64,000 nucleotides of DNA from contig UQQM01000007.1 of the NCBI GenBank assembly GCA_900543205.1, positions 16,871-80,870 on the forward strand, given 5' to 3'. Shown piece after piece: positions 16,786 through 29,646 of this stretch. Origin of the DNA: an uncultured Bacteroides sp. (GTDB lineage: Bacteria; Bacteroidota; Bacteroidia; Bacteroidales; UBA932). The position numbers and the translations under genes were made by a program. The notes beneath the pieces are model-generated. The model had not been told where the DNA came from. It did no database searches and worked only from the letters and a program-made list of their open reading frames with translations. The number at the start of each line of letters is the position of its first letter. Within the stretch, counting starts at the first letter, position 1.

Positions 16786-19596
16786 ATGATTAGAAAATTC
16801 ATAATTTCAATGACTGCGCTTCTCGGCGCAGTCATTTTGGGATACGGGCAGGAGCTGCCCCAGCTTCCCAACGACCCCGAAACGAGAGTCGGCAAACTTG
16901 AGAACGGAATGACCTACTATATACGTCATAACGACAAGCCTGCCGATAGGGCCGAATTCTATCTCGCGACCAATGTAGGTGCCATCCAGGAGACCCCCGA
17001 CCAGGACGGTCTCGCACACTTCCTGGAGCACATGTGCTTCAACGGAACCAAGAACTTCCCCGGCAAGAGCCTGCTCGAGTGGCTCCAGAGCATCGGAGCC
17101 TCCTTCGGAGGCAACGTCAACGCCTCCACAGGCGTCGAGCAGACCATCTACATGCTCAACAACATTCCCCTGATACGCCCCACGGTGGTGGACAGCTGTC
17201 TGCTCATCATGCACGACTACTCTCACTTCGTGACCTGCGACCCCGAGGAAATCGACAAGGAGCGCGGGGTGATTCTCGAAGAGAAGCGTTCGCGCAACAC
17301 AGCCGGCTGGAGAATGATGGAGAAGTCAAGGCCCTATATCTACGGAGATTCCAAGTACGCGACCTGCTCCATCATAGGCAGCGAGGAGAACCTCAAGACC
17401 TTCAAGCCCGAAAGCCTGGTGAACTTCTATCACACCTGGTATCGTCCGGACATGCAGGCCCTCATCGTTGTAGGTGACATAGACGTGGACGAGGTAGAGG
17501 CAAAAATCAAGTCCACCTTCGCCGACATCCCCGCGCCCGAGAACCCCAAGGCCAAGGACGTGATAATGATTCCCGGCAACGAGGAGCCGATAGTCGGAAT
17601 CCTCACCGACCCCGAGAACACGAGCAGCAGCTTCGAAATCTACTGGAAGACCGAGCCCACCCCCGAGGAGTTCAACAGCACTTCCCTCGGACTGATGGAG
17701 GACATACTCGAGAGCATAATCTCCACCGTGATGAACGAGCGCTTCAGTGACATAAGCGCCACTCCCGAGGCTCCCTACCTGACCGCCGGATTCGGCTTCG
17801 GAGAGCTCACCGAGACCTGCGACGCAATCTACGGACAGGCCGTCTGCAAGGACGGGCAGGATCTCGCCGCATTCGAGTCACTGCTCACCGAAATCGAGAG
17901 GATGAAGCGCTACGGCTTCACCGACAACGAAGTGGAGAGAGCCAAGAGCGAGCTGCTTTCACGCTACGAGGCCGCGATGAAGAGCGCCGACACCCGCCAG
18001 AACTCCGAGTTCGTATATCCTCTCATATACAACTTCTTCGACAACGAACCTTTCATGACTCCCGAGACCGAATATGAGTATGCGAGCATGATGATGCAGC
18101 AGATTCCCGCCCAGATCATCAATCAGGCGCTCACCCAGCTCATCACCCCCGAGAACATCGTGGTCCTCTATTCGGCTCCCGAGCGCGAGGGCATGAAGCT
18201 TCCCACCGAGGCAGAAATCAAGGATATCATCACCAGGGTGGAGAACGCCGAGATAGAGCGTCCCGCAGGTGAGGACATTCCCGAGAGCTTCCTTGACGCC
18301 GCCGCACTGAGCGGAAGCAAGGCAGTATCCACCGGCGAAGGACTCTACGGCTCCACCGTGGCCGAGCTCGCCAATGGCGTCAAGGTAGTCATGCTCCCCA
18401 CCGACTACGAAAAGGACAACATCTCCTTCAGCATCTACAAGAAGGGAGGAAAGAGCCTGATTTCCGACGAGGACCTCTATTCCTTCGATGACAACCTCTG
18501 GTCCCTCTATCTGCAGAACACCGGAGTTTCCGGCTTCTCATCCACCACCGTGATGAAGATGCTCTCAGGAAAGCAGGTATCCGTATCTCCTTTCATTGAC
18601 ACGTACGCCCACGGAGTGGCCGGAGCCACAACTGCAAAGGATCTCGAGACAGGGCTTCAGCTCGCATACCTCTACTTCGCGGATCCCCGCTTCGACCAGG
18701 CCGAATATGACCTGGGAGTCAGCCAGATCGAGACCATCCTGCCCAACCTGGAGTCAACCCCCGACTGGAAGCTCAACCAGGAAATCTATGAGAACGCCTA
18801 CGACAGCCCCCGCCGCTTCCTGATTGACGAGGAGGTAATCGCCAAGGCAAGCCTCGCCACTCTCGAGAAGAACTACAGGAGGCTCTTCAACGATGCAGCC
18901 GGAGCAGTGATGTTCATGGTCGGCGACTTCGAAGTCGAGACCGCCCTTCCCCTCGTGGAGAAGTATATCGGCTCAATCAGCGCCGGTGAGCAGGCATTCG
19001 ACTGGAAATACTGCGGAGACGGACTGGTAAGCGGACGCAAGATCAATGACTTCACCGCCGAGATGGAGACCCCGATGGTCACCGTATACCAGATCTATAA
19101 CATCGACGCTCCCTACAAGGTCGAGAGCAACGTCACCATGTCTGCCCTTTCATACATACTTGACATGGTCTACACTGCGACCCTCCGTGAGGAGGAAGGC
19201 GGCACCTACGGAGCCAGCGCGCTCTACGGAGTCTCTCCGGCCCCTCATGAGACCGTGACCCTGCAGGTTGTGTTCCAGACCAACGTGGAGTCCGCCGACA
19301 AGCTGCGCGAGCTCGCTGTCAAGGGCATCGAGGACATAGCCAAGGACGGCCCCACCGCCGACCACTTCGATAAGGCCGTGAAGAACCTGGAGAAGGAGCT
19401 TCCCGAGAGCAAGCAGCACAACAGCCTATGGCACAGCGCTCTGCGCCAGCATGAGCTTTACGGGGTAAGCGACTACATCGCAGAGTACGAGGCAGCCATC
19501 AAGGCCCTGACTCCCGAGAAGGTACAGAAGGCCGCGGCTGAACTGCTCAACTCAGGCAACTATCTTGAGTTCGTCATGCGGCCCGCTGCTGAATAG
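16786..19596 (+). CDS. M16 family zinc metallopeptidase (pitrilysin/insulinase type), exported
   Basis: 936 residues; N-terminal signal peptide (FIISMTALLGAVILGYGQE). The inverted zinc motif HxxEH is at residues 78-82 (LAHFLEHMCFNGT) with the third ligand likely Glu159 (EIDKERGVILEEKR). A second, inactive M16 half follows from about residue 520, giving the usual two-domain clam. Likely periplasmic peptide degradation. It follows nifJ after 24 bases, so it may be read on the same transcript, though the two functions are not obviously linked. Confidence 0.9.
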   Translation: MIRKFIISMTALLGAVILGYGQELPQLPNDPETRVGKLENGMTYYIRHNDKPADRAEFYLATNVGAIQETPDQDGLAHFLEHMCFNGTKNFPGKSLLEWLQSIGASFGGNVNASTGVEQTIYMLNNIPLIRPTVVDSCLLIMHDYSHFVTCDPEEIDKERGVILEEKRSRNTAGWRMMEKSRPYIYGDSKYATCSIIGSEENLKTFKPESLVNFYHTWYRPDMQALIVVGDIDVDEVEAKIKSTFADIPAPENPKAKDVIMIPGNEEPIVGILTDPENTSSSFEIYWKTEPTPEEFNSTSLGLMEDILESIISTVMNERFSDISATPEAPYLTAGFGFGELTETCDAIYGQAVCKDGQDLAAFESLLTEIERMKRYGFTDNEVERAKSELLSRYEAAMKSADTRQNSEFVYPLIYNFFDNEPFMTPETEYEYASMMMQQIPAQIINQALTQLITPENIVVLYSAPEREGMKLPTEAEIKDIITRVENAEIERPAGEDIPESFLDAAALSGSKAVSTGEGLYGSTVAELANGVKVVMLPTDYEKDNISFSIYKKGGKSLISDEDLYSFDDNLWSLYLQNTGVSGFSSTTVMKMLSGKQVSVSPFIDTYAHGVAGATTAKDLETGLQLAYLYFADPRFDQAEYDLGVSQIETILPNLESTPDWKLNQEIYENAYDSPRRFLIDEEVIAKASLATLEKNYRRLFNDAAGAVMFMVGDFEVETALPLVEKYIGSISAGEQAFDWKYCGDGLVSGRKINDFTAEMETPMVTVYQIYNIDAPYKVESNVTMSALSYILDMVYTATLREEEGGTYGASALYGVSPAPHETVTLQVVFQTNVESADKLRELAVKGIEDIAKDGPTADHFDKAVKNLEKELPESKQHNSLWHSALRQHELYGVSDYIAEYEAAIKALTPEKVQKAAAELLNSGNYLEFVMRPAAE

Positions 19597-23641: not shown

Positions 23642-23716
23642 AGATTATGGTTTTTAAATGGTTAAGCAATTGCCTGTACTACTAACCGTATAAGTGGTAC
23701 ATAACTAGCCTGGAAG

Positions 23717-24125: not shown

Positions 24126-25559
24126 CTAAAGCGAGCTGTAGATGATCTGCCCGTCGCAGAGCACGCAGCGCACGACGGACGAATCGGCCGAATAGACGTA
24201 GTTCGAAATCAGGTTGTGGCAGGGCTGCATGCTGCTCCGGCCGAGGTCGACCAGTATCGCATCGGCCAGCTTCCCTGCGGCCACTTCGCCGGCATCGATG
24301 CCGAAGGCCTCGGCTCCGTTGCGGGTGGCCCAGCGGAAGACTTCGGATGCGGGCAGCAGCGAAGGGTCACCGTTCACCTTGGCGAGCAGGGCAGCGAACT
24401 TCATCTCCTCGCGCATGTCGAGGTTGTTGTTGGACGAAACTCCGTCCGTGCCTATGGTTATGCGGCAGCCTGAATCGATCGCGAGCTCGTACGGGAAGCG
24501 GCCGCTGCCGAGCTTCATGTTCGAGCAGGGGCAGTGGGCGACCGTGACTCCCCTCGCCGCAAGAATCTTCCATTCTTCGGCATCCACATGCACGCAGTGG
24601 GCGACAATCACGTCCGGGCCCAGAAAGCCCAGCGAATCGAGGTAGCGCACGGGGGTTGTCCCGTGGTCACGTATGCAGTTCTCGACCTCGGTGCGCGTCT
24701 CGGCCACATGGATATGCAGCCTGAGCCCGTTGGCTCTGGCGAACGTTGCCGAACGCTTCAGCTTGTCCGGACCTACCGTATACACGGAGTGGGGCGCCAT
24801 CACGAGCTGAATGCGTCCGCCGGTGGGATCCTTCCAGTCGTGTACGAACTGCATCTTCTGCTCCTCCAGCGACTTGCTGTGGTTCTCCATCACGGTGATG
24901 CCTATCGCGGCACGCATCCCCGACTCCTCCACCGCCTTTATCGTCTCCTCTATCTCGAAGTACATGTCGGAGAAGAAAACGCTTCCGGAAGCGGCCATCT
25001 CCCTGACCGCAATATCGCTGCCGCGCCGTATGTCCGCTGCGGTCAGCTTGTCCTCGAACGGCCAGACATACTCCTGCAGCCACTGCTCGAGCGGCATGTC
25101 ATCGGCATAGCCGCGCATCAGCGTCATGGCCGCATGGTTATGGGTGTTGTAGAGGGCCGGCAGTATCGCCATGCCTTCAGCGTCTATGACCTTGTCCGCC
25201 GGAGTCTCCTCGGGAGCGTCCAGATCCGCAAAGCGGCCGTCGCGCACAAGGATATTGCAGCGCTTCGGGCCGAGCAGTACGGCCTTGAGCAGAATCGACT
25301 GCGGCGCGCGGAAGTCGTTCTCGAGCTTCGAGCATTCACGGAGAACCACCTCCGCCTGCGCAAGCAGACGCCGGCCCTTCTCCGTCAGCTCGACCCCGCT
25401 CCTGCTGCGCCGGAGCAGCCTCCCTCCGGCGAATCTTTCAAGTTCCGAGATGTTCTGGCTCACCGCAGGCTGGGAGAGCCCGAGAGCCTTCGCCGCTGCG
25501 GTGAAACTGCCCAGCCCCGCCACGGCGGAAAATATCCTGAGTCTGAAATTATCTATCAT
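24126..25559 (-). CDS. LysR-type HTH domain fused to an MTA/SAH deaminase-like amidohydrolase
   Basis: 477 residues in one frame. Residues 1-65 are a LysR winged HTH (FTAAAKALGLSQPAVSQNISELER) and 65-88 the usual linker helix. The LysR effector domain is absent. From about residue 91 the chain is an amidohydrolase of the MtaD type. Visible ligands are His140 and His142 (NTHNHAAMTLMRG), His284 and Glu287 (LHIHVAETRTE), His321 (VAHCVHVDAEEW) and Asp372 (IGTDGVSSNNN). Family enzymes deaminate adenosine-type compounds such as S-adenosylhomocysteine or methylthioadenosine. Since both the DNA-binding and the metal-site residues look intact, it may be a regulator whose ligand is its own substrate. 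It is the second gene after a Sel1-like protein (4-base gap). Confidence 0.85.
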   Translation of the reverse strand: MIDNFRLRIFSAVAGLGSFTAAAKALGLSQPAVSQNISELERFAGGRLLRRSRSGVELTEKGRRLLAQAEVVLRECSKLENDFRAPQSILLKAVLLGPKRCNILVRDGRFADLDAPEETPADKVIDAEGMAILPALYNTHNHAAMTLMRGYADDMPLEQWLQEYVWPFEDKLTAADIRRGSDIAVREMAASGSVFFSDMYFEIEETIKAVEESGMRAAIGITVMENHSKSLEEQKMQFVHDWKDPTGGRIQLVMAPHSVYTVGPDKLKRSATFARANGLRLHIHVAETRTEVENCIRDHGTTPVRYLDSLGFLGPDVIVAHCVHVDAEEWKILAARGVTVAHCPCSNMKLGSGRFPYELAIDSGCRITIGTDGVSSNNNLDMREEMKFAALLAKVNGDPSLLPASEVFRWATRNGAEAFGIDAGEVAAGKLADAILVDLGRSSMQPCHNLISNYVYSADSSVVRCVLCDGQIIYSSL

Positions 25560-25563
25560 CCTG

Positions 25564-26985
25564 TCAATCTATAAAAAGCTTGTCCTTGTCAAGTTCTTCC
25601 TTACGGGAAAGCAGGTCCTGCGCATGGTCCGTCTCGCCGAAAATCTGCAGGAAGCTGCAGTATTTCGCGGTATCGGCGTCGAAGCCGTGGCAAAGCGAAT
25701 TCACCGTGGCATAATCCCTCATCGCAGGGACATATCCCGTCCCCGCCGCCTGCTTGAGGTAGAACAGCGCCTTGTCGGAAAGACCGGAGATGGTTCCGCT
25801 GTCCCTGCCGTCGTCGATGGCGGCACCGCACTGATGGGTGTAGAATTTGCCCAGATAGTATGACGCCATGACCGAGTTCATATTGTATGCGACCATGAGA
25901 TGCTTATAGAAGCTCTCCTCCTCATAAGATTCGAGGTAGCCGTCATGGTCGGCCACGGCGAGCAGATAGCCTCCGAGGGCCGCCTGGGCGTCCGCAAGGG
26001 AGCTGTCCCGCAGGAGCCAGCCCTCAAGTGCGTCATAGGGGTATTCGCTGTCAAGTTCGTCGGCAAAGTTGACGATCCAGGGCAGCTCTGCGAGAATCAC
26101 CGACGCGTACGGTTCGGCTTCTTCGGCCAGGGCGACGAGCGTGGTGATCCCGGCCATCCCGTCGATGCCGGCGGCTATCAGCAGCCTCGCCTGCTCGGCC
26201 TCCCCGCGCCGGTCTCCGGAAAGCGCGTCATGCCTCTTCCGGCATCGGGCCGCCTCGCCGTAATCCCCCTCGGCTTCAGCTATCCTGCCGAGATACAGCC
26301 AGGCCTCCGCGGCTTTTTGCGGCGCGCTCTTCTCCAGTTCCTGCGCTGTCCAGCCGAACCAGTCCTTCGCCTGCTTCAGGTCCGGAGCTTCATATCTGGG
26401 AGCGTAAAAGAGCAGGGCCAGCTTGAAGGCGCAGTCCCCACGGGCGGGATATCCGATGTCGCAGGCGGCCTTGTACAGAAAACCCGTCGCCCGCTGCCGG
26501 CATTCCTCCACGCTCAGGCCCAGCCGTCCGCAATTGAACAGCATTTCATTCATATACAGATCCCCGAGCGCCTCGCCTATCCTGGAATTTCCGGCCGCTG
26601 CGGCGGAAGCCGGGCTTTCAGGCCCTTCATGGAGATTCTTCACCTTCGCGGCAAGCACATCCGGCTCGATGCCGTCGGATTCCAGGGCGCTCTTCACCAC
26701 GCCTATGATTCCGAGCATGTAGTCATCATACCCTATCTCCTCGGCCTCGTCTTCATCATCGAGGTCACCGAAATCCTCCGGATCCCCGTCCACGCCGTTT
26801 TCCGGAACGACCCCCGCCCCGCCTTCAGGTCCGACCGGCCATACGCCGTCAGGGCCGTCGTCGAGCCATTCGACATCCACGTCAATTTCATCCTCAACGG
26901 CGACGGCCGGCCCCGCATCTTCCGCGGCTCCGGCGGCAACGGTCCGCTGCATGTCGTCTTCAAAGCTATTGTCTAACATTTCCAA
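25564..26985 (-). CDS. Sel1/TPR-like repeat protein with acidic N terminus
   Basis: 473 residues, no signal peptide. The first 90 residues are acidic and low in complexity (DEIDVDVEWLDD; DDEDEAEE). Helical repeats follow with Sel1-type spacing: IGEALGDLYMNEM, GDCAFKLALLFYAPR, AAEAWLYLGRIAEAEGDYGEAARC, MASYYLGKFYTHQCGAA, ALFYLKQAAGTGYVPAMRDYATV. Such repeats bind partner proteins. It is 4 bases upstream of the LysR-deaminase fusion on the same strand, so the two proteins are probably made together. The specific partner is unknown. Confidence 0.7.
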   Translation of the reverse strand: MEMLDNSFEDDMQRTVAAGAAEDAGPAVAVEDEIDVDVEWLDDGPDGVWPVGPEGGAGVVPENGVDGDPEDFGDLDDEDEAEEIGYDDYMLGIIGVVKSALESDGIEPDVLAAKVKNLHEGPESPASAAAAGNSRIGEALGDLYMNEMLFNCGRLGLSVEECRQRATGFLYKAACDIGYPARGDCAFKLALLFYAPRYEAPDLKQAKDWFGWTAQELEKSAPQKAAEAWLYLGRIAEAEGDYGEAARCRKRHDALSGDRRGEAEQARLLIAAGIDGMAGITTLVALAEEAEPYASVILAELPWIVNFADELDSEYPYDALEGWLLRDSSLADAQAALGGYLLAVADHDGYLESYEEESFYKHLMVAYNMNSVMASYYLGKFYTHQCGAAIDDGRDSGTISGLSDKALFYLKQAAGTGYVPAMRDYATVNSLCHGFDADTAKYCSFLQIFGETDHAQDLLSRKEELDKDKLFID

Positions 26986-27124: not shown

Positions 27125-27298
27125 CTACTCGTCAGGGGTGATTGCTCCCATGGGGCAGGCGTCGGCACATGCGCCGCAGCTGATGCACACCTCGGGATCA
27201 ATGGAATAGACATCTCCCTCCAGGATTGCTCCGGAAGGGCACTCGCTCTTGCATGAACCACAAGCCACGCAGACGTCAGGATTGATCTTGTAAGCCAT
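27125..27298 (-). CDS. 2[4Fe-4S] ferredoxin, 57 aa
   Basis: ATG at 27298-27296, TAG at 27127-27125. The 57-residue protein has two clusters, CVACGSCKSECP and CISCGACADACP, in the classic clostridial-type layout, with the pseudo-twofold repeat seen throughout. It carries electrons in the cytosol and is a natural acceptor for the pyruvate:ferredoxin oxidoreductase at 13237. It stands alone, with TACTTTTG (27336-27329) about 30 bases upstream. Too short for many gene callers, but certain. Confidence 0.95.
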   Translation of the reverse strand: MAYKINPDVCVACGSCKSECPSGAILEGDVYSIDPEVCISCGACADACPMGAITPDE

Positions 27299-27394: not shown

Positions 27395-27748
27395 ATGAAG
27401 ACTTTGCTGACATTGCTGCTGACACTTGCTCTCGGAGCGTCGTTCGAGTTCGACAAGACCATACACGACTTCGGCAAGATAAGCCAGGAAGACGGTCCTG
27501 TAAGCTGCACTTTCACCGTCAAGAACACCGGAGACGAGCCTCTGACCATCTTCGCGGTGGTCTCATCCTGCGGATGCACCGGAGCGGAATGGACACGTGA
27601 ATCCATAGCTCCCGGAGAGAGCGGCGAAGTTTCCGCTACCTACACCAACGACGAGGGGCCCTACCCCTTCGACAAGATTCTCACAGTCTACACCTCGGCC
27701 CAGAAGAAGCCGGTTTTACTACACTTGAAGGGAGTGGTGACGAAGTGA
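27395..27748 (+). CDS. DUF1573 protein, exported
   Basis: 117 residues: a short signal peptide (MKTLLTLLLTLALGAS) and one DUF1573 module, an Ig-like/ASH-type fold. Marks are FDKTIHDFGKI at the start, VKNTGDEPLTI, and SSCGCTGAEW with the conserved Cys pair. Members are common in Bacteroidota and sit in the periplasm or on the surface; their function is poorly known. Its TGA overlaps the parE ATG (TGATG), so translation is probably coupled. The link of an exported protein to a topoisomerase gene is odd and may only be positional. Confidence 0.8.
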   Translation: MKTLLTLLLTLALGASFEFDKTIHDFGKISQEDGPVSCTFTVKNTGDEPLTIFAVVSSCGCTGAEWTRESIAPGESGEVSATYTNDEGPYPFDKILTVYTSAQKKPVLLHLKGVVTK

Positions 27749-29646
27749 TGGCCGAACTCAACTACACAGACGAGAACATAAAGACCCTGGTCGGGCTGAA
27801 GCACATTCGCAGGCGCCCGGGCATGTATATCGGCCGTCTGGGCGACGGCAAGAACTCAGGGGACGGAATCTACGTGATGCTCAAGGAAATCGTGGACAAC
27901 TCCATCGACGAGTTCTCCATGGGTTTCGGCAAGGAGGTCAGGATTTCGATAGAGGACCGCAAGGTGACCGTCAGGGACTACGGCCGTGGAATCCCCCTCG
28001 ACTCCGTGGTGAAGGCGGTCAGCGTGCCGAACACCGGCGCAAAATTCGACAACAAGGCGTTCAAGAAGTCAGTCGGCCTCAACGGGGTCGGTACCAAGGC
28101 CGTGAACGCCCTGTCCTCCGAATTCTACGTATGCGCCTACAGGGACGGGGAATGCTCCTGGGCGAGGTTCGAGCGCGGAGAGCTGTGCGAGAGCGGCAAG
28201 GAGAGCACTGACGAGAAGAACGGGACGCTGGTCAGCTTCGTGCCCGACAGCCTGATATTCGGAGAATACGCCTTCCAGCACGAGCACGCGGAGACCATGA
28301 TGAAGAACTACTCCTATCTGAAGAAAGGTCTCACGCTCACCCTCAACGGCCGCAGCTTCAGGTCGGAGAACGGACTCCTCGACCTTGTCAACGACAATCT
28401 TTCGGAAGCGCCGCTGTACCCGCCCATCCATCTCGAAGGCGAGGACATAGAGGTGGTCATCAGCCACTGCAATTCCTACGGCGAGAACATCGCCTCCTTC
28501 GTCAACGGGCAGAACACCCGCGACGGAGGCACCCATCTCGCGGCCTTCAGGGAGGCCATAGCCAAGACCCTCAAGGACTTCTTCAAGAAGAACTATGAAC
28601 CTTCCGACTGCCGCCAGGGCATAGTCGGGGCCATCAGCATACAGATACAGGAGCCCAACTTCGAAGGCCAGACCAAGACTAAGCTCGGCTCCAACTATAT
28701 GTGGGAGAGGCAGGAGCCCGACCAGAACGGAGTGCTCCACACCGAGGTCGGCCCCACCATCAGGACCTACGTCAACGACTTCATAGCCAAGAACCTCGAC
28801 AACTACCTGCGCATACACAAGGAGATAGTCCCGGCCATAGAGGAGAAGATAAAGTCCTCCCAGCAGGAGCGTGAGGAAATCTCGGGAATCCAGAAGAAGG
28901 TGCGCGAGCGCAACAAGCGCAGCAGCGTCTACAACAAGAAGCTGCGCGACTGCCGCTACCACTACAATGACAAGGTCAACGCGAAGAACCAGGACGACGT
29001 CGAGAACTCGTCGATATTCATCACCGAGGGCGACTCGGCGAGCGGAACCATCACCCAGGCGCGCAACGCGAACTGCCAGGCCGTGTTCTCGCTCAGGGGC
29101 AAGCCCATCAACTGCTACAAGGAAAGCCGCAAGAAGGTGGCCGAGAACGAAGAGCTCAACCTGCTGATCTCCGCGCTCGGAGTCGAAGACAACATCCAGA
29201 ACCTCAGGTACAACAAGATAATTGTCGCGACCGATGCCGACGACGACGGAATGCACATCAGGATGCTCGTGCTGACCTTCTTCATGAAATACTATCCCGA
29301 ACTCATACGCGAGGGGCACGTGCACATATTGCAGACCCCCCTCTTCAGGGTGCGCAACAAGAAGGAGACCCGCTACTGCTATTCATCCGAAGAGAAGGCG
29401 GACGCGGTCGCGAAGCTCAAAAGCGGAGTCGAGATCACCCGCTTCAAGGGCCTCGGTGAAATCTCCAAGGACGAATTCGTCCACTTCATCGGCAAGGACA
29501 TGAGGCTGGACGAGGTGGGCATTGCCGACGGCGAGTCCATAGCGGCCATCATGGAATTCTACATGGGGGACAACACGCTCGACCGCCAGAACTTCATACG
29601 CCGCAACCTGCGCAGCGAAGAGGAACTTGAGGACATAAACATCTGA
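27748..29646 (+). CDS. parE: DNA topoisomerase IV subunit B-like (type IIA ATPase subunit)
   Basis: Start ATG at 27748; 632 residues. GHKL ATPase: EIVDNSIDEFSMGFG, VRDYGRGIPLDSV, and KSVGLNGVGTKAVNALS. Transducer lysine region QTKTKLGSN. TOPRIM: FITEGDSASGTITQARN near 424 and TDADDDGMHIRML near 495. C-terminal GLGEISKDEFVHF matches the GLGEM motif. It lacks the long GyrB insert. It opens the ATP gate in chromosome decatenation; the parC partner is not in this window. The protein is the diverged Bacteroidota ParE type. Confidence 0.9.
   Translation: MAELNYTDENIKTLVGLKHIRRRPGMYIGRLGDGKNSGDGIYVMLKEIVDNSIDEFSMGFGKEVRISIEDRKVTVRDYGRGIPLDSVVKAVSVPNTGAKFDNKAFKKSVGLNGVGTKAVNALSSEFYVCAYRDGECSWARFERGELCESGKESTDEKNGTLVSFVPDSLIFGEYAFQHEHAETMMKNYSYLKKGLTLTLNGRSFRSENGLLDLVNDNLSEAPLYPPIHLEGEDIEVVISHCNSYGENIASFVNGQNTRDGGTHLAAFREAIAKTLKDFFKKNYEPSDCRQGIVGAISIQIQEPNFEGQTKTKLGSNYMWERQEPDQNGVLHTEVGPTIRTYVNDFIAKNLDNYLRIHKEIVPAIEEKIKSSQQEREEISGIQKKVRERNKRSSVYNKKLRDCRYHYNDKVNAKNQDDVENSSIFITEGDSASGTITQARNANCQAVFSLRGKPINCYKESRKKVAENEELNLLISALGVEDNIQNLRYNKIIVATDADDDGMHIRMLVLTFFMKYYPELIREGHVHILQTPLFRVRNKKETRYCYSSEEKADAVAKLKSGVEITRFKGLGEISKDEFVHFIGKDMRLDEVGIADGESIAAIMEFYMGDNTLDRQNFIRRNLRSEEELEDINI

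Follow-up and report, generated by a model that had tools for sequence, protein, structure and literature searches.

Analysis of a 64,000-nucleotide window (the whole stretch of DNA considered here, from an uncultured Bacteroides sp.) identified a gene on the minus strand, at 24126..25559, in which a LysR-type DNA-binding domain is fused to a nucleoside deaminase. With moderate confidence, we read it as belonging to a family of one-component LysR-derived regulators, in which an MTA/SAH-type nucleoside deaminase would have taken the place of the effector-binding domain and would act as the sensor. The reading builds on features visible in the sequences themselves, which are the fusion and its conservation, a locus shared by full-LysR, HTH-only, split and fused genes, a candidate operator box in a subset of these, and a loss of catalytic residues under retained constraint.

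In the proposed mechanism, DNA would be contacted by the HTH and linker helix together, an adenosine-like metabolite would be bound in the deaminase barrel, and DNA binding would be governed by the binding of this ligand, plus its turnover in active members. The operator in many relatives would be a T-N11-A box located at the start of the gene itself, with autorepression as the probable outcome. Active members, by deaminating the ligand, could reset the signal, and in a side branch where catalysis was lost the barrel would stay as a likely sensor or dimerization domain. The window's own protein would presumably still work in such a way.

The window gene is an ATG-started open frame of 477 amino acids, both domains of which recur in the listed relatives. 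The LysR-type HTH and wing take up residues 1-63 (25371..25559, minus strand; translation checked), with a Pfam HTH_1 match at residues 6-63 (E 7e-20), and are followed by the LysR linker helix region at residues 64-88 (25296..25370, minus strand). The MTA/SAH-type deaminase domain, assigned from Pfam, catalytic residues and fold match, fills residues 89-477 (24126..25295, minus strand), where Amidohydro_1 matches residues 132-472 (E 8.1e-74). The AlphaFold2 model (mean pLDDT 89.9) shows a three-helix HTH with a wing, a linker helix at residues 60-83, and a first deaminase strand beginning at residue 88. The Pfam scan gave no match to the LysR_substrate effector domain in the window protein.

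A sequence-only reading of this DNA had claimed that a LysR HTH and linker helix were joined to a deaminase in one frame, that the LysR effector domain was absent, and that a domain search should be used as a check; the Pfam matches, the open frame and the AlphaFold2 model agree with this arrangement. The metal and acid residues it had named (His140, His142, His284, Glu287, His321 and Asp372) are all in place in the alignment, as is His257.

The top NCBIfam matches of the window protein were also deaminases, of the COG0402 type, with all 25 matches shown falling below their curated cut-offs, and the score against the MTA/SAH deaminase equivalog NF012037 was 230 bits, below the cut-off of 779. 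Amongst the best PDB folds were 4f0r (an MTA/SAH deaminase, ranked first), 4gbd and 4dyk from P. aeruginosa, and TM0936. The likeness to these MTA/SAH deaminases covers the fold, the metal and acid residues, and the segments HxAMxLxRGxADDxxLxxWLxxxIWPxE and GTDGxxSNNxLD. Unlike them, the fused protein has an N-terminal predicted DNA-binding domain, and Arg354 and Glu358 show no variation among active fused proteins, whereas in the unfused relatives of the alignment both positions vary.

Both PF00126 and PF01979 were found in 118 of the 120 database homologues listed (from 5874 passing proteins), the exceptions being P0118 and P0120, and the fused homologues sit on many different contigs. Because both domains are kept on many contigs, a frameshift or an assembly join is a poor explanation, and an artefact of this kind was rejected. 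A phage origin was also rejected, as the 16 matching phage records were all below 60% identity, none covered more than 80% of the query, and the eight listed span the deaminase part only. Those of the listed homologues that carry a database name are called amidohydrolase, chlorohydrolase, hypothetical protein or MTA/SAH deaminase.

The scan of GTDB contigs returned 167 relatives, the best 80 of which were kept and typed with profiles of the two halves. These comprised 22 fused genes, 3 genes with the HTH encoded in an ORF of its own immediately upstream, and 55 deaminases alone, most of which start approximately at the position matching residue 88 of the fused protein; the closest named relative of the window amongst the 80 was from Candidatus Cryptobacteroides merdipullorum (L001, 87%). 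The sequence-only reading had held that the fusion would fall if homologues were always encoded as two proteins, and fused, split and deaminase-alone forms were all found. In the genus samples, a relative at E ≤ 1e-130 was present in 23 of 151 genomes, so the distribution of the gene is patchy, and a single genus sample holds fused (G001), split (G011) and dead-enzyme (G303) genomes. A deaminase tree of 94 rows groups the 26 fused proteins in a single clade (80/96, not starred) and the 3 split proteins in another (100/98), with the 65 deaminase-alone proteins making up the remainder.

The genes around the fusion allowed its locus to be followed across genomes. Directly upstream, after a 4-bp gap, lies a 473-aa gene (25564..26985, minus strand) with weak TPR similarity below the Pfam cut-off, for which a Sel1 label was dropped in view of these weak TPR matches only; a relative of it precedes the fused gene in L001, L002 and L003, and the two genes perhaps share a transcript. 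Upstream of it is a gene for a 57-aa two-cluster ferredoxin (27125..27298, minus strand; assigned by eye, translation checked), and ferredoxin genes recur at the shared locus in relatives. A DUF1573-like gene (27395..27748, plus strand) and a gene for a ParE-like topoisomerase subunit (27745..29646, plus strand), both named by eye, served as markers of the orthologous locus. An M16-type peptidase gene (16786..19596, plus strand; by eye) lies downstream of the fused gene in the window and is not its divergent partner; in relatives, an M16 gene and the regulator gene are divergently oriented at 11 of 12 full-LysR loci, at one of the three split loci (L022), and at the fused loci L019 and L021.

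At the split loci (L022, L024 and L034), an HTH protein of 117-129 aa with an LWSxxGDxHIxxKKK-like tail, similar in all three, precedes the deaminase, and its stop codon overlaps the deaminase start as ATGA. Used as a query, the split HTH protein matched in 97 of the 151 genomes, with full-LysR and fused genes amongst the matches. The protein database gave 440 matches in a search that could show only proteins of about 64-205 aa, and 93 of the 120 listed were 117-129 aa long. HTH-only LysR proteins are widespread (L164-L174, L177 and most of P0132-P0251), and those that were read have no effector domain and share a short conserved tail (..VWSSGGDIHIEIK).

A gene of the M16/PFOR/DUF1573-ParE neighborhood lay within 1.5 kb in 12 of the first 14 short HTH loci, and was absent at L169 and L173. 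Wider regions from 20 of the 97 matching genomes, picked amongst the better split-HTH matches, all held at least one of M16, PFOR, DUF1573 and ParE (names by eye), and their regulator genes were 12 full LysR (266-332 aa), 2 short LysR (L201 and L202) and 6 HTH-only. Two of the five LysR proteins scanned passed the LysR_substrate Pfam cut-off and three fell short; of those placed at the shared locus (L175, L180 and L187), one passed. In genomes G015 and G016, the deaminase is unfused and encoded elsewhere, and a short LysR gene remains at the shared locus.

Altogether, the LysR effector domain has apparently been replaced by an enzyme at one locus. The simplest reading of these genes would be that the effector domain eroded and the deaminase then took its place, the order of the steps being something we infer because the tree is unrooted. 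In a quick neighbor-gene tree, from which L001 was left out, the fused L019 and L021 group with the split loci and apart from the other fused loci; these two may stem from a second fusion or from a transfer. A fuller series at the one locus, in which the LysR sensor erodes, an HTH-only gene gains a translationally coupled deaminase, the two become a ligand-destroying fused regulator, and catalysis is dropped in one branch to give a pure sensor, is offered as a tentative scheme that we rate somewhat short of an even chance.

The candidate operator, ATAAG-N5-CTTAT, is a T-N11-A dyad found in the upstream sequences at or just before the start codon, right after a TAxxTTTG-like element of the -7 type. 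At a threshold of at least 9 of 10 positions, it was present in 27 of 48 loci, comprising 15 of 23 fused, 2 of 2 dead-enzyme, 8 of 12 full-LysR and 2 of 2 short-LysR genes. None of the 6 HTH-only loci (genes with the conserved tail) or 3 split loci of this set had it, and the box therefore skips the supposed intermediates. Amongst 68 control starts of deaminase ORFs (65 unfused and 3 split), none reached 9 positions and one reached 8 (Fisher p 1e-13, a value that ignores kinship and applies to a motif spotted by eye in the counted set); this like-for-like control covers the start codon, and a control on a shorter stretch excluding the start codon gave the same outcome. In 11 further loci (2 fused, 6 HTH-only and 3 full LysR, setting aside re-readings of the already counted L004, L006, L034 and L190), no box of at least 9 positions was found. 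T-N11-A is the usual LysR box, linked to repression and autoregulation (PMC8407307). The position of the box over the start codon suggests autorepression.

At their starts, the window gene and L001-L003, which make up the window's clade, have no box, so in this lineage either the operator lies elsewhere or the role of the protein has changed, and for the same reason regulation by the window protein itself is something that we infer. A near-box at 23690-23704 (8 of 10 positions, before an 866-aa gene and after a -7-like element) was rejected as too weak, and it is common to L003 but not to L001. A genome scan for a regulon was likewise set aside, since perfect boxes besides the gene's own start did not exceed control counts in any of the 12 genomes scanned.

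The members of one clade (L005, L010, L011, L013, L014, L020, L161 and L162) have their fused gene behind an electron-transfer-flavoprotein/acyl-CoA-dehydrogenase run (by eye), directly in all of them except L020, where about 1.6 kb lies between. No second site of at least 9 positions was found near the run at these eight loci.

Catalytic residues have been lost in some members. In L093, from genome G303, the HTH is kept and His257, His284 and Glu287 are replaced. Substituted catalytic residues, in five patterns, were found in ten of 131 database proteins, two of the ten being truncated; because 11 of the 131 came from a dead-enzyme query, ten is no estimate of frequency. Amongst the 65 deaminase-alone and 3 split rows of the alignment, there was no loss of catalytic residues. 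The residue patterns had suggested several independent losses, a reading given up in view of a tree in which nine of the ten fall in one clade (support 97, in a quick tree with long branches where a false join is possible; the near copies P0005-P0030 and the short P0065, P0127 and P0131 were left out). Catalysis was thus probably lost once, with further decay of the site afterwards, and the single clade therefore amounts to one natural experiment.

The dead-enzyme copies of G303 and G459 are 91% alike, have a perfect box in both genomes, and both follow the electron-transfer-flavoprotein/acyl-CoA-dehydrogenase run (by eye). Between these two copies (the pair L133/L134), dN/dS was 0.06 in the HTH, 0.12 in the linker and 0.13 in the deaminase. 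The barrel is still present in the predicted structure of P0121 (mean pLDDT 89.5, from an alignment that includes active proteins), and the paralogue search in G303 found, besides the dead enzyme, only a 35% paralogue. With catalysis gone, the barrel of this side branch likely serves for sensing alone or for dimerization. The retention of the HTH despite loss of the enzyme, together with a box common to LysR genes that have no enzyme, favors a regulator with an enzyme-derived effector domain.

The strongest competing explanation is that of an autogenously controlled enzyme, in which the deaminase is the metabolic point and the HTH merely represses its own gene when substrate is low, with no wider sensing; such a loop would be trigger-enzyme-like. 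Catalytic residues are intact in 25 of the 26 fused rows, so deaminase activity has clearly been selected, and in 7 of 12 genomes (picked for having the box) the only perfect copy is at the gene's own start. The scans found no regulon beyond this promoter, which is odd for a dead-enzyme regulator and speaks against the preferred reading. A pure feedback loop, however, leaves unexplained a catalysis-less clade with HTH, box and constraint, as well as the box at LysR genes without a deaminase, and we consider this explanation unlikely, roughly one that would hold in a quarter of such cases.

It is improbable, to a clearly greater degree, that the HTH is a passenger, serving only as a leader or dimerization aid after a deaminase gene had inserted downstream of an ancestral LysR start. 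Unfused deaminases (65 of the 94 tree rows) do manage without an HTH, and the window's clade, the split genes and the HTH-only genes have no box. Against this, dN/dS for the HTH was 0.01-0.16 over 12 pairs (0.08-0.12 in pairs with the window gene; L012 was left out, as its start pattern was not found), and the ten HTH residues that do not vary in alignment A1 match exactly in 124 of 132 rows, as they do in every one of the ten dead-enzyme proteins. Over the 12 pairs the linker is looser than either HTH or deaminase (0.04-0.86), a point against the preferred regulator. Least credible of all is that the dyad is no protein site and instead works as a hairpin in the leader RNA or as context for the start codon: nearly all boxes do lie no more than some 30 nt from the start codon, and 6 of 27 overlap it, but the half-sites are near-invariant with a free spacer and fixed T-N11-A spacing (21 of the 27 boxed loci listed), the box also occurs at deaminase-less LysR genes and at 0 of 68 deaminase-ORF starts, and a 5-bp A+T-rich stem would be weak.

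The ligand of the preferred one-component regulator is likely adenosine-like, by homology alone. The sequence-only reading had suggested that the protein binds and perhaps consumes its own signal, for example SAH or MTA. The first part gains comparative support from the box, the dead enzymes that keep the HTH and the exchange of effector domain for enzyme, and SAH or MTA would be candidates for the signal: the deaminase is closest to MTA/SAH deaminases, but its substrate is not readable from sequence. All ten fused genomes G001-G010 also carry an unfused deaminase paralogue, 36-40% identical, and the fused protein is therefore not the sole such enzyme in them.

The route of SAH disposal was compared in 18 genomes. 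AdoHcyase was found in none of nine fused, split or dead-enzyme genomes, and MTA/SAH nucleosidase scored over the cut-off in eight of them; AdoHcyase was present in all four full-LysR genomes, which gave no nucleosidase match, and the five unfused-deaminase genomes were mixed (AdoHcyase in three, nucleosidase in one). The route thus tracks the state of the locus, which may reflect mere descent and is no proof of the ligand. A deoxyribose-phosphate aldolase-like gene (by eye) adjoins the unfused deaminase at 11 loci (L039, L047, L049, L052, L054, L055, L057, L060, L063, L066 and L068), which hints at nucleoside salvage.

As in LysR-type regulators, the family has HTH_1, a linker helix, a candidate T-N11-A box at the gene start in many relatives, and a position in the genome that LysR genes occupy in sister genomes. 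It departs from them in having an enzyme barrel instead of LysR_substrate, and the window gene has no box before it and does not diverge from a target. Trigger enzymes, which also control gene expression, likewise combine catalysis with gene control (both predicted here), but in the present family a LysR HTH is fused on. The nearest concept is that of the MocR regulators such as GabR, which combine a GntR HTH with an aminotransferase fold; the enzyme fold acts as the ligand-sensing effector domain, and the combination arose by fusion (PMC6677901). MocR proteins pair a GntR-type wHTH with a fold type-I PLP domain, whereas Pfam gives HTH_1 and amidohydrolase families only for the protein described here, so that both the HTH family and the enzyme differ; moreover, most members of the present family keep an intact catalytic site, and one genus still has split, HTH-only and dead forms. 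In the open-licence literature, which lacks most subscription journals, no title on a LysR-amidohydrolase fusion was found, a weak indication that the LysR-deaminase fusion is undescribed.

What is known of how enzymes turn into sensors of transcription factors comes mostly from end states such as MocR. The genus described here has, at a single locus, full-LysR, HTH-only, split, fused-active and fused-dead genes, several of which carry a candidate operator, and because these forms coexist the steps can be tested singly. If active members do use up their ligand while bound to DNA, the protein would be a self-resetting one-component switch.
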